Shown here: positions 18,016 through 23,013 of the stretch, in pieces
How the letters are laid out: each line of letters starts with the position of its first letter
Position numbering within the stretch: the stretch's first letter is position 1
From: Desulfurobacteriaceae bacterium
GTDB lineage: Bacteria > Aquificota > Aquificia > Desulfurobacteriales > Desulfurobacteriaceae
DNA: 64,000 nucleotides
Direction of reading: 5' to 3'
Assembly: GCA_027051905.1 (NCBI GenBank)
Contig: JALUGO010000011.1
Coordinates: forward strand, 1-64,000
Position numbers and translations under genes: made by a program
The notes under the pieces: generated by a model
The model's input: only the letters and a program-made list of their open reading frames with translations
What the model was told of the DNA's origin: nothing
The model's database searches: none

Positions 18016-19634
18016 TGGACTTCTTATATATAGAAAAAGTTGTTGAAGAGCTCAGATCAAGTCTTATAAAGGAACGATTTGCAGAGGTTTTTAAAGAAGA
18101 AAAACTGGTTTCCTTTAAAGTTGGTCGTTTTTACCTGAATTTTTACTGGGGAAATCCCAATGCGTTTTTCCTGGATAATAAACCTCTGACGAAGCAAGAA
18201 TTTCCTCCTCTTATGAAGTTGAAGGGGGCTTTTGTAAAGTCGATTTCACTTCCTGTAGTTGACAGAGTTATCGAATTCATGCTTGTGAAACCTGTAACTG
18301 GTAATAAACTTATTCATTTTTTTCTAATTTTTGAGTTAACCGGAAAAAATGCCAACCTTTTTCTTCTGAATAAACATAGGAAAGTAGAGTTCCTTTTGAG
18401 AAGTGTAGATAGCTCTGTAAGGCCAATCTCTCCGGGAGATTCCTATATTTTGCCACCTTCTGATAAAAAGAAATTTGAGGAACTTCAGTTTGGAGAGGTG
18501 ACCCTCGAAGGAGTTAAGAGCAAACTTTACAAGTTTGTTGCTGGTATTTCTCCGCTCAATGCGAAAGAGATTGCTTATTTAATGGAAAAGTATGGTAGTT
18601 TAACTAAAGCTTACGAAGAGTTTATGAAACTTCATAGAAAATCAGAAAAAGCTTTTGTCTATTATCGGAATGGGAAACCCAAATTTCTAACAACGTTTCC
18701 TTACCAGTCTCTTTCTGATCTTGAGAGTAAGGAATTCAGCGGTTTCCTACCTTACTCTTCGGCCTGGAAGGAGTTTTACGTTAAAACTGTTGAAGAAGAA
18801 AGGTTTAAAACTCTGAAAGAAAAGTTGATTTTAAGGGTTGAAAAGAAATTGAACTCTCTTCAAAAGGAGTTACAAGAGCTTGAGAATCTTGAAAAACTCA
18901 GAAATGAAGCTGAGAGATGGAAAAGGATGGGTGAACTTCTCAAGTATAGTCTTCACCTTGTAAAACCCGGCCAAAGCGAAGTAAAAGTTATGGATTTTTC
19001 AACAGGGAAGGAAGAACGCGTTCTGCTGGATCCTTTAATCTCTCCGAAGGAGAATCTCAGTCGTATTTTTAAAAAATATCGCAAACTCTTGAAGAGAATA
19101 TCATTTGCTGAAAACAGGCTTGGAGAAATTAAGGCTGAACTTGAAAGGCTAAAACTTCTAAAAGAGTTTGTGGCTTCAAGAGAGAAGATAGAAGAACTGA
19201 AGGCTTTATTACCTAAAAGCACAAAAGAATTTTTAATTCCCAACTTTTTAACATTCAATCTTCCATCTGGGAAGAAAATTCTCGTAGGTAGAAATGCTAT
19301 TGAAAACGAGTTTCTTTCCCTGAGGTTAGCAAATCCTTGGGATTTATGGTTTCATGCTAAAGATACTCCTGGATCTCATGTTATTCTCAGACTTCAAAAG
19401 GGAGAAGAACCTTCAGATGAGGATATCCTTCTTTCAGCTTCTGCAGCTGCCTATTTCAGCAGAGGAAGAGAGTCTGGAAAGGTCCTGGTTGACTATACAA
19501 GAGTAAAGAACCTGAGGAAACCTCCCAAAACTCCTAAAGGTTTTGTTGTTTACTCTGGTGAAAAGACAGTTTCTGTAAGTCCAGACATTTTCAGGGAAAT
19601 ATTTGAGGAAAAAAGCCCCCAAAAAGGGGGCTGA
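18015..19634 (+). CDS. rqcH: NFACT-family ribosome quality control protein RqcH
   Basis: 539 residues. Order of domains: NFACT-N (ELTGKNANLFLLN about residue 105), helix-hairpin-helix region, a long coiled coil (about residues 265-400 with a break) and C-terminal NFACT-R (NPWDLWFHAKDTPGSHVILR, VLVDYTRVKNLRKPPKTPKG). RqcH binds obstructed 50S subunits and adds alanine tails to stalled peptides; older annotations call it fibronectin-binding protein. Its last codons contain a hairpin that reads as a terminator for the opposing cyd operon. It is fused by TGATG to the preceding gene. Confidence 0.9.
   Translation: MDFLYIEKVVEELRSSLIKERFAEVFKEEKLVSFKVGRFYLNFYWGNPNAFFLDNKPLTKQEFPPLMKLKGAFVKSISLPVVDRVIEFMLVKPVTGNKLIHFFLIFELTGKNANLFLLNKHRKVEFLLRSVDSSVRPISPGDSYILPPSDKKKFEELQFGEVTLEGVKSKLYKFVAGISPLNAKEIAYLMEKYGSLTKAYEEFMKLHRKSEKAFVYYRNGKPKFLTTFPYQSLSDLESKEFSGFLPYSSAWKEFYVKTVEEERFKTLKEKLILRVEKKLNSLQKELQELENLEKLRNEAERWKRMGELLKYSLHLVKPGQSEVKVMDFSTGKEERVLLDPLISPKENLSRIFKKYRKLLKRISFAENRLGEIKAELERLKLLKEFVASREKIEELKALLPKSTKEFLIPNFLTFNLPSGKKILVGRNAIENEFLSLRLANPWDLWFHAKDTPGSHVILRLQKGEEPSDEDILLSASAAAYFSRGRESGKVLVDYTRVKNLRKPPKTPKGFVVYSGEKTVSVSPDIFREIFEEKSPQKGG
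19609..19632 (-). terminator. Rho-independent terminator of the cyd operon, inside the rqcH 3' end
   Basis: Read on the minus strand, AGCCCCC-TTTTT-GGGGGCT is followed by TTTTTTCC, a strong intrinsic terminator just after the 36-aa gene at the end of the cyd operon. On the plus strand the same bases encode the last residues of RqcH, with no U-run in that direction. Confidence 0.8.
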
Positions 19635-19638
19635 ATGT

Positions 19639-19749
19639 TTACTGGCTTGTAACAATGACGAAAGATGTAATGAGAACAATGAGAATGTATATACCGAACA
19701 CTCCGTAGAAAAGAAGCGTTTTAATTGGGCTGTTCTCTACAGTTCCCAT
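19639..19749 (-). CDS. 36-residue single-TM micro-protein at the end of the cyd operon
   Basis: The reading frame MGTVENSPIK followed by one hydrophobic stretch (about residues 13-33) ends in TSQ-stop. A strong GGAGG lies 6 bases before the ATG, and it overlaps the 140-aa gene by 29 bases. It lies between that gene and the operon terminator, so it is the last cistron of the cydA-cydB transcript. Small single-TM subunits (CydX, CydY/CydS, CydH) are known in cytochrome bd complexes; this may be another, but no homology is recognised. Confidence 0.6.
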   Translation of the reverse strand: MGTVENSPIKTLLFYGVFGIYILIVLITSFVIVTSQ

Positions 19750-20143
19750 CTTTTCCTCCTTCAATAAGTGCTTTGAGAGCTTTTAGCTCTTCTTCAAACC
19801 TATCCCGGTTCAGGAAAACGATAACGTAGTGCCCAACAATTCCCTTTAGGGAGAACATGGCAGCAAGTATAAATACCAATCTCGCTAAAAAGTGAAAAGT
19901 TGTTCCGGGTTCAAAGACTACCTTCCAGAGGTAAAGGAAAGGAAGTAAAAGAGCCCCTCCAACGAGTAAAAAGTATGTAAATAAGTTAGGCTTAAAAAAG
20001 CTAAGATCTGACTCAAACTCTCTTCTTATAAACTCTTCAATTTCGTTCCAGGGCTTTCCTTCCTTTTTAAGCTGAAGAGCTCTATCTATCAGCTCTTTTC
20101 TCTCACTTATGAACCTCTCTTTAAGGCCTACAATCGCTGCCAT
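19721..20143 (-). CDS. Two-TM membrane protein of the cyd operon, unknown function
   Basis: 140 residues, ATG preceded by AGGGAG. A charged helical N-terminus (about 50 residues) is followed by two hydrophobic segments (about residues 56-77 and 84-110) and a charged C-terminus. No motif with clear cofactor ligands is seen; single histidines occur near the membrane (FHFLARLVF, KGIVGHYVIV). It lies downstream of cydA, cydB and the CydX-like gene on the same strand and overlaps the 36-aa gene. A role in assembly or stability of the oxidase is a guess from position. Confidence 0.6.
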   Translation of the reverse strand: MAAIVGLKERFISERKELIDRALQLKKEGKPWNEIEEFIRREFESDLSFFKPNLFTYFLLVGGALLLPFLYLWKVVFEPGTTFHFLARLVFILAAMFSLKGIVGHYVIVFLNRDRFEEELKALKALIEGGKDGNCREQPN

Positions 20144-20174
20144 GGATACTCCCTGTAAAAAGGGATTGGGGGGG

Positions 20175-20267
20175 TTAAGCCCCCTCTCCCTCTAACTTAG
20201 CCTTAGCTAAGGTGTAAGTCAACCAAGCTACTGCGACCCACCAGATAAAAGCTATTATTAACCACAT
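20175..20267 (-). CDS. CydX-like small subunit of cytochrome bd oxidase
   Basis: 30 residues, too short for standard gene calling. It starts MWLIIAFIWW, has one transmembrane segment (about residues 2-20) and a short charged tail (KAKLEGEGA). It begins 14 bases after the cydB stop with AAAGGAGGG 7 bases before its ATG. Known CydX proteins (about 30-40 residues, MW-Y-aromatic N-terminus, acidic tail) follow cydB in the same way and stabilise hemes b595/d. The similarity is in size, start MW, position and tail charge rather than strict identity. Confidence 0.7.
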   Translation of the reverse strand: MWLIIAFIWWVAVAWLTYTLAKAKLEGEGA

Positions 20268-20281
20268 AACCTTTCCCTCCT

Positions 20282-21490: not shown

Positions 21491-22891
21491 TTAGTAAAGT
21501 TCTGCTTCTTTTTCTGGGCCTTTTGATGCAAACTTAGCAAGAAGGTAGAAGTCTGCGATAGCAAGACCTGTAAATGTTGCAAGGAAGATTATGTAGGTAA
21601 TAATAACCTCAATATTTGTGAGCGGAGAAACAGCTTCAGCTGTTTTAAGGCCTATCTCAGGAAGAAGGATTTTTCCGTAGTCGTCTGTTAATGGGTAAAC
21701 GATCCAGGGTTGCCTTCCAACTTCAGCTGTAGCCCATCCTAACCAGCAGGCGATGTATGGAAGTGGAAGGGAGTAGAGTGCAACCTTGAGGAATCCTGTT
21801 GCATTTTCAAGGTTTTTATATTTGGTGAGTCCCCAGATAAAGAGGATTACAAAGAAGAAACCAAGGTATACCATGATGTGAAATGCCCAGAATGTGAAGT
21901 TAACAGGAGGAATATACTTTCCAGGGCCGAATTTTTCCTCAAACATTTTCTGAAGTTCTTTAGCTCCAAGGAGTTTCCCGTTCCAGTCGTGTGTTGCAAG
22001 GAAGCTAAGGAGACCTGGAATAGGAAGTGGAATTTCAACTACGTTTTTCTGAGCTTTCTCATCTGCCCACACTGCTAAGAGGACGTTTGCGCCCTGTTTG
22101 TTCTCCCAGAGAGCTTCCATAGCAGCAAGCTTGGTTGGCTGTGTTTTCGCAACTTCATGAGCGTGAATGTCTCCAATGATGATTTCACCTACAGAAGCGA
22201 TAAGACCAAATATGAGCGCAATGTAAGCGGATTTCTTGAAAAATTCTACATGCTGTTTTTTAAGAAGGTGGTAAGCACTTACTGAGAGGACGAATACTGC
22301 GGAAAGTATCATTCCGGCAGTTGCTGTATGCCAGAATTTAACATCTGCAACAGGGTTGAATACAACCGCCCACCAGTCGGCAAGTTCTGCCCTTTTTCCT
22401 GCTACGAAGTGGGATACTTCAGCTCCTACCGGGTGTTGCATCCATCCGTTTGCAATTAAGATCCAGAGAGCGGAGAGGTTAGAACCAATTGATGAAAGCC
22501 ATGCAGCTAAGAGGTGAACTGCTTTTGGAACCTTGTCCCATCCGAAGAGGAAGACTCCCATGAACGTTGACTCCATGAAGAACGCCAGGAGACCTTCAAT
22601 AGCGAGGGGAGCTCCAAAAATGTCTCCAACAAACCTTGAGTAGACAGACCAGTTCATACCAAACTCGAACTCGTGAACCAGTCCTGTAGCTACTCCGAGA
22701 GCAAAGTTGATGGCAAAGAGCTTTGCCCAGAACTTAGCCATGTCCCGGTAAATCTCTTTACCGGTAGCGTAGTGAAGAGTGAGCATGAGTGCAGATAGCG
22801 TTGACAGCCCTAAGGTTAACGGGACAAATATGAAGTGGAAGAAGGCTGTCATCGCGAACTGCAGTCGCGATACCAGTAATACGAAGTCCAT
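21491..22891 (-). CDS. cydA: Cytochrome bd oxidase subunit I
   Basis: 466 residues. It carries hemes b558, b595 and d. Conserved parts are SRLQFAMTAFFHFIFVPLTLGL (heme His), GLVHEFEFGMNWSVYSRFVGDIFG, and GWATAEVGRQPWIVY. The quinol loop is of the short type. At the position of the Escherichia coli pair R391-I392-M393 the sequence reads FHIMV, so the Met is kept but Arg is replaced by His. The ATG at 22891 is chosen over a TTG at 22906 because GGGAGG sits before it. It leads the cydA-cydB-cydX-like operon. Confidence 0.95.
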   Translation of the reverse strand: MDFVLLVSRLQFAMTAFFHFIFVPLTLGLSTLSALMLTLHYATGKEIYRDMAKFWAKLFAINFALGVATGLVHEFEFGMNWSVYSRFVGDIFGAPLAIEGLLAFFMESTFMGVFLFGWDKVPKAVHLLAAWLSSIGSNLSALWILIANGWMQHPVGAEVSHFVAGKRAELADWWAVVFNPVADVKFWHTATAGMILSAVFVLSVSAYHLLKKQHVEFFKKSAYIALIFGLIASVGEIIIGDIHAHEVAKTQPTKLAAMEALWENKQGANVLLAVWADEKAQKNVVEIPLPIPGLLSFLATHDWNGKLLGAKELQKMFEEKFGPGKYIPPVNFTFWAFHIMVYLGFFFVILFIWGLTKYKNLENATGFLKVALYSLPLPYIACWLGWATAEVGRQPWIVYPLTDDYGKILLPEIGLKTAEAVSPLTNIEVIITYIIFLATFTGLAIADFYLLAKFASKGPEKEAELY

Positions 22892-22948
22892 CGCGGCACC
22901 TCCCAAAAAGATTTATGGGTCTTATTCTATTTTTAACTCCAAGAGCTG

Positions 22949-22954
22949 ATTATA
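22949..22954 (-). promoter_or_regulatory. Probable -10 element for the cyd operon
   Basis: On the minus strand TTTTGATATAATC contains TATAAT with an extended TG-like context, about 58 bases before the cydA ATG. The -35 region is weak (around GTTTAG). No operator palindrome is obvious. Confidence 0.4.
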
Positions 22955-23013
22955 TCAAAATGTGGTTAATTCTAAACTTCCCATCATATCCTAATATTTT
23001 AAAACAGTTTTCC

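Follow-up and report, generated by a model that had tools for sequence, protein, structure and literature searches.

The 30-aa open reading frame (ORF) that follows cydB in the Desulfurobacteriaceae genome studied here is a real protein-coding gene under purifying selection and tied to cydAB, because it is conserved in 20 of 20 Desulfurobacteriales genomes that can be read at the end of cydB, shows a pN/pS of 0.16, and is matched by its profile behind cydB in a second Aquificota family. From position, size, and helix, we infer that its product, a single helix of 27-30 aa, is probably an accessory subunit of the cytochrome bd quinol oxidase with short Q-loop that occurs in Desulfurobacteriales and one further Aquificota family, and is packed on CydA like CydX. 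In its role the protein very probably works like CydX, and as regards descent we speak of a functional likeness only; family identity with the CydX of proteobacteria finds no support.

The small gene behind cydB and its range

Genes on the minus strand of the window, i.e., the whole stretch of 64,000 nucleotides of contig JALUGO010000011.1 that was analysed, are arranged in the order cydA, cydB, 30-aa ORF, ORF for a 140-aa protein with two transmembrane segments (two-TM protein), and 36-aa ORF (Table 1). The identities of CydA and CydB are certain; the cydA ORF runs from a TTG at 22906, and the ATG at 22891 (MDFVLL) is the likelier start. An earlier note on this DNA had claimed a 30-aa frame with a Shine-Dalgarno sequence 14 bases after cydB, encoding one transmembrane helix and a charged tail, and these claims are borne out. 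From the cydB stop to the ATG of the small ORF there are 14 nt, which contain AGGAGG, with 8 nt between the end of GGAGG and the ATG. The translation, MWLIIAFIWWVAVAWLTYTLAKAKLEGEGA, has a single hydrophobic segment with a Kyte-Doolittle 19-residue maximum of 1.99, AlphaFold2 predicts one helix comprising residues 2-26 (mean pLDDT 84), and the tail carries the charged residues K22, K24, E26, and E28.

Table 1. Features of the cyd locus in the window, listed from the promoter side to the end of the operon.
Feature	Position	Strand	Basis or remark
sigma-70-like extended -10 promoter candidate, upstream of cydA	22949..22976	-	10/12 matches + TG; such sites no commoner than in shuffles
cydA, cytochrome bd subunit I, short Q-loop	21491..22906	-	Pfam PF01654 3.9e-162
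cydB, cytochrome bd subunit II, 397 aa	20282..21475	-	Pfam PF02322 6.6e-94, TIGR00203 4.7e-83
Shine-Dalgarno AGGAGG	20274..20281	-	between cydB stop and small-ORF ATG; kept in relatives
30-aa single-helix ORF (CydX-like small subunit, probable)	20175..20267	-	ATG start, stop codon included in span
RNA hairpin, small-gene stop codon in loop, terminator-like	20156..20196	-	arm covariation; terminator scan 20184-20168
140-aa two-TM protein, LKGxVGHxV motif	19721..20143	-	conserved in order; shorter in second family
36-aa second single-helix protein, last operon gene	19639..19749	-	pN/pS 0.156
intrinsic terminator at operon end	19614..19632	-	terminator scan; strong

When the region 3' of cydB is compared among related genomes, as had been proposed with the claim, frame and start prove to be kept: in each of the 20 Desulfurobacteriales genomes in which the 3' end of cydB is readable, cydB is followed by an ORF of 27-30 aa that starts with MW; the other genomes of the order have either no cydB match or a masked cydB end. 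In these 20 genomes, the homologous ORF begins 10-28 nt after the cydB stop and is preceded by a Shine-Dalgarno sequence. Among 15 close genomes, the values are 0.106 for pN and 0.675 for pS (pN/pS 0.158), and the two other forward frames at the same site give pN/pS values of 1.09 and 2.29. Of the third codon positions, 23 of 27 are variable, as against 18 of 54 when the first and second are taken together (Fisher p = 1.3e-5). Residues M1, W2, W9, T17, K24, and E26 are invariant across the Desulfurobacteriales, and M1, W2, and T17 are invariant across both Aquificota families.

A profile built from the 20 Desulfurobacteriales small proteins was searched over 136 genomes of the phylum. It finds one match in each of the 20 Desulfurobacteriales genomes, located behind cydB, with no second strong match elsewhere in those genomes, and it also matches six genomes of another family of the same class with E values of 5e-5 to 1.5e-3. 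All six of the latter matches, for example MWLLIAFIYFFGVAFLTVGLIKALDQD, lie 12-18 nt behind a cydB whose product is only 42-45% identical. This recovery by profile, in which cydB was not used, is the strongest support for a gene bound to cydAB. Three weaker matches in the 136 genomes, with E values of about 0.07, look like chance. Two other Aquificota families possess a different CydAB (CydA about 41-45%) and have no such ORF behind cydB.

The co-encoded CydA and comparison with known small subunits

The Q-loop of CydA in the window consists of 86 residues vs 141 in E. coli, counted between the same boundaries. According to the alignment, its length is 85-86 in Desulfurobacteriales, 111 in the second family, 141 in the enzymes with CydX, and 143-151 in the enzymes with CydY. 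In a CydA tree of 56 sequences, the Desulfurobacteriales and the second family form one clade (support 100/100), which lies outside a cluster of CydX and CydY enzymes (100/99) and groups weakly (89/71) with short-Q-loop CydAs of Desulfobacterota, Nitrospirota, and Chloroflexota. No helix-type small ORF was found behind cydB in these nearest short-Q-loop relatives, and a search with profile A5 in genomes from the classes of two of them (L036 and L037) gives three weak matches, none of them near cydAB. For the 30-aa family itself, neither the models of Pfam and NCBIfam nor the chains of the PDB give a match. Since a family match is lacking, the Q-loop is short, and CydA is placed outside the CydX and CydY clade, the small subunit may either have originated separately or have diverged past recognition.

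As to ancestry, with the role unchanged, the small protein could be a far-diverged homolog of CydY/CioY, or go back to an ancestor that CydX and CydY had in common, and have come with cydAB by descent or by transfer instead of being a separate invention, a reading that we consider doubtful but worth keeping in mind. CydY/CioY, known from Campylobacterota (Allen 2014; CioY of C. jejuni, 2025), is marked by conserved W, P, and Y residues in one helix after cydB (PMC11955535), and the 30-aa family shares with it the position behind cydB, the single helix, an early helix Trp, and a late Tyr with basic residues. W9 and Y18 are mostly present in the 30-aa family, in both families a Trp precedes [ST]-Y-[KT]-[LFI], and a helix Pro occurs in one member only (L004). 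In a profile-profile comparison (hhalign), the 30-aa family scores 16.6 against CydY, a value that 6 of 100 column-shuffled decoys reach, and by the same decoy test CydX and CydY resemble each other (1/100). However, the comparison with CydY is borderline and misses the usual significance, the W-P pair and the long Q-loop of the CydY enzymes are missing, and CydA falls in a different clade, CydX and CydY enzymes being united at 100/99 and the Desulfurobacteriales placed elsewhere. The similarity to CydY/CioY is weak and unproven.

Some observations on these better-known families were made in passing. When profiles of CydX and CydY, from sets taken from loci L057-L149, are aligned, W-x18-E falls in register (hhalign 4.6e-5; 1/100 decoys as good), a hint that the two families, described as separate, may share ancestry. 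In the Bacteroidota loci L079, L081, and L106, and probably L073, a CydY-like ORF follows directly after cydB, e.g., MYLKEILWLLTWPLLIIVSYYLIRFALKRFEE, and resembles CioY/CydY of Campylobacterota; examples from Bacteroidota (one) and Campylobacterota (three, with WP) give no match to an NCBIfam model, and a broad search of Bacteroidota recovers mostly remote cydB genes without small ORFs. On a contig of a Nitrospirota metagenome-assembled genome (L060), a long-Q-loop cydAB of the proteobacterial type is accompanied by a canonical CydX, which is in line with horizontal transfer or with a mis-binned contig.

With regard to its role, the 30-aa helix would pack on CydA and stabilise the haem-bearing helix bundle as CydX and CydS do. 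CydX, AppX, and CydS sit along TMs 1 and 4-7 of CydA near haem b558 (PMC8951039), and CydX is required for stable haem d/b595 (PMC8951039, PMC8413341). CioY from C. jejuni, which is unlike CydX in sequence and occupies the same gene position, binds CioA in co-immunoprecipitation (PMC11955535). In the E. coli CydX dimer, Met1 contacts Trp2 (PMC13189123), and the invariant Met1-Trp2 of the 30-aa family may work in a similar fashion, the helix perhaps being a dimer mediator as well. Lys22 and Lys24 would be expected inside, which suggests an N-out/C-in topology; for CydX, a periplasmic C-terminus is given by Allen 2014 and Degli Esposti 2015 (PMC5322542), and in the drawing of a structural review the N-terminus is at the top, so that the literature on topology is mixed. 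It counts against a subunit role that many bd oxidases, including those with the nearest short-Q-loop CydA relatives, have no small ORF behind cydB, and mycobacterial CydAB functions without a small ORF-encoded subunit (PMC8413341). Position and conservation would fit equally well with a helper of assembly or haem insertion that acts on CydAB and is absent from the mature enzyme, and the operon codes for two further small membrane proteins; as the structurally studied single-helix proteins encoded at this position (CydX, AppX, and CydS) are all subunits of the purified enzyme, we consider such a helper unlikely.

The accessory subunit favoured here had been called CydX-like in the earlier note, and one part of that designation stands. 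In its positional and functional sense it is well supported: the small ORF encodes a helix of about 30 aa appended to cydB, with an aromatic N-terminal side (Trp) and a charged C-terminal side, and is conserved always together with cydAB. The other part, identity with the family, fails on motif, models, profile, and Q-loop. The likeness to CydX and AppX (PF08173, TIGR02106; E. coli bd-I and bd-II) is considerable, as in both cases the third gene after cydB, separated by exactly the 14-nt gap of E. coli, encodes a protein of about 30 aa with a single helix, a start with Met1-Trp2, an acidic residue past the helix ([LF]E at 25-26), and the same expected site on CydA. However, the motif YxxWxxGx15[E/D], present in 97% of CydX homologs (PMC4325964), is absent from the 30-aa family, in which residues 3, 6, and 9 are L-F, A-S, and W-Y, respectively, and no G is found at position 9. 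None of the CydX models of Pfam and NCBIfam matches the small ORF at E<=10; E. coli CydX itself matches TIGR02106 at 9e-20. PF08173 finds nothing at the small-ORF locus in 24 genomes and gives only chance matches elsewhere. Profile-profile comparison with 24 CydX proteins from fetched loci is equalled by 47 of 100 column-shuffled decoys, and an HMM test likewise does not rise above shuffles. Finally, CydX is partnered by a long-Q-loop CydA in 99% of cases (PMC4325964, PMC13189123), and the CydA encoded here has a short Q-loop. Membership of the CydX family proper was rejected on these results and seems very improbable.

Single-helix proteins of other short-Q-loop bd enzymes are known as CydS (bd of Geobacillus) and CydZ (DUF2474, PF10617; CIO oxidases). 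In contrast to CydS, the 30-aa family profile matches no PDB chain at E<=10, and in contrast to CydZ, the small ORF has no N-terminal extension as described for DUF2474 and PF10617 gives no match at the locus, so that identity with CydZ was rejected. The survey of "cydX-like" proteins by Degli Esposti 2015 (PMC5322542) covers Proteobacteria and some Firmicutes, and the small ORF fits its loose description of a cydB-appended helix with aromatic N-terminal and charged C-terminal sides; the terms Aquif- and Desulfurobacter- are absent from the main text of that survey and of Allen 2014.

The hairpin at the stop codon and the rest of the operon

At the end of the small gene lies an RNA hairpin whose loop includes the stop codon. 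This hairpin is found at the same place in L001-L019 and L023; for 19 of 20 Desulfurobacteriales genomes its energy lies at about -20 to -28 kcal/mol, and the second Aquificota family lacks it. The hairpin arms covary: own 3' arms give -19.1 vs -14.2 kcal/mol for swapped ones, and 0 of 20000 permutations are as good, a result that is strong but not exact because the permutation ignores relatedness; thinning the set to eleven less closely related genomes again leaves no permutation as good. Behind several copies there is a T-run, and we take the hairpin for an intrinsic terminator or attenuator at which a part of the mRNA would end, past the small gene. As the 5' arm is formed by the codons for the C-terminal (K)LEGEGA, the RNA structure may add to the conservation of the protein tail. 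That the stop codon lies in the loop, and that the hairpin is conserved, covarying, and terminator-like, would also suit a leader peptide, idle in itself, with which ribosomes halting in the loop set the read-through into the two downstream genes. Codons 1-21, which lie outside the hairpin, show a pN/pS of 0.178, though, and the second family possesses the peptide but no hairpin; we consider this explanation very improbable. A chance ORF, for which the abundance of short ORFs in the ORF listing of the window might speak, is refuted by conservation, codon-level selection, and recovery by profile.

Behind the hairpin, the two-TM protein has a motif of the LKGxVGHxV type (LKG[IFV]VGH) that is retained into the second family, and no Pfam or NCBIfam family is matched above cut-off. 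Its operon position is the same as that of E. coli YbgE, but no convincing alignment was obtained and kinship with YbgE was rejected. The second single-helix protein, of 32-36 aa with invariant Y..TS, closes the cyd operon throughout the order, and its profile finds one strong match per Desulfurobacteriales genome, in the cyd operon. The constraint acting on it equals that on the 30-aa protein (pN/pS 0.156 vs 0.158), it fits no known family, and it is possibly a further oxidase subunit. With CydH of E. coli (ynhF) it shares a single helix of about 30 aa and a possible place as fourth subunit, but CydH is encoded by an orphan gene in E. coli and the 36-aa protein in the operon; kinship was rejected, as similarity is not above shuffles (fraction 0.72). 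Past the operon terminator follows a convergent NFACT/RqcH-like gene.

Significance for the Aquificota

Taken as a whole, the operon might encode a separately evolved multi-subunit bd oxidase built on a short-Q-loop CydA, with its own CydX analogue, the two-TM protein, and a second helix in a CydH-like or other lipid-facing site, the last two being dosed by the terminator hairpin at the stop codon; we put this forward tentatively, as a possibility below even chance. The 30-aa proteins would constitute a new family of bd-oxidase small subunits in Aquificota, outside all Pfam and NCBIfam models, and an exception to the reported rule that CydX/CydY-type proteins occur with long-Q-loop CydA. They suggest that single-helix subunits have arisen on CydA repeatedly, as CydX/CydY, CydZ, CydS, and the 30-aa family, and with such a repeated origin the function of the helix becomes testable in an enzyme from thermophiles. 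The Desulfurobacteriales are heat-loving vent bacteria, and for T. ammonificans, a strictly anaerobic member of the Desulfurobacteriaceae, the bd complex Theam_0494-0496 has been detected in the proteome (PMC5441870). The small genes described here provide a concrete list of likely overlooked genes in the genomes of vent anaerobes that are thought to use bd oxidase against oxygen.
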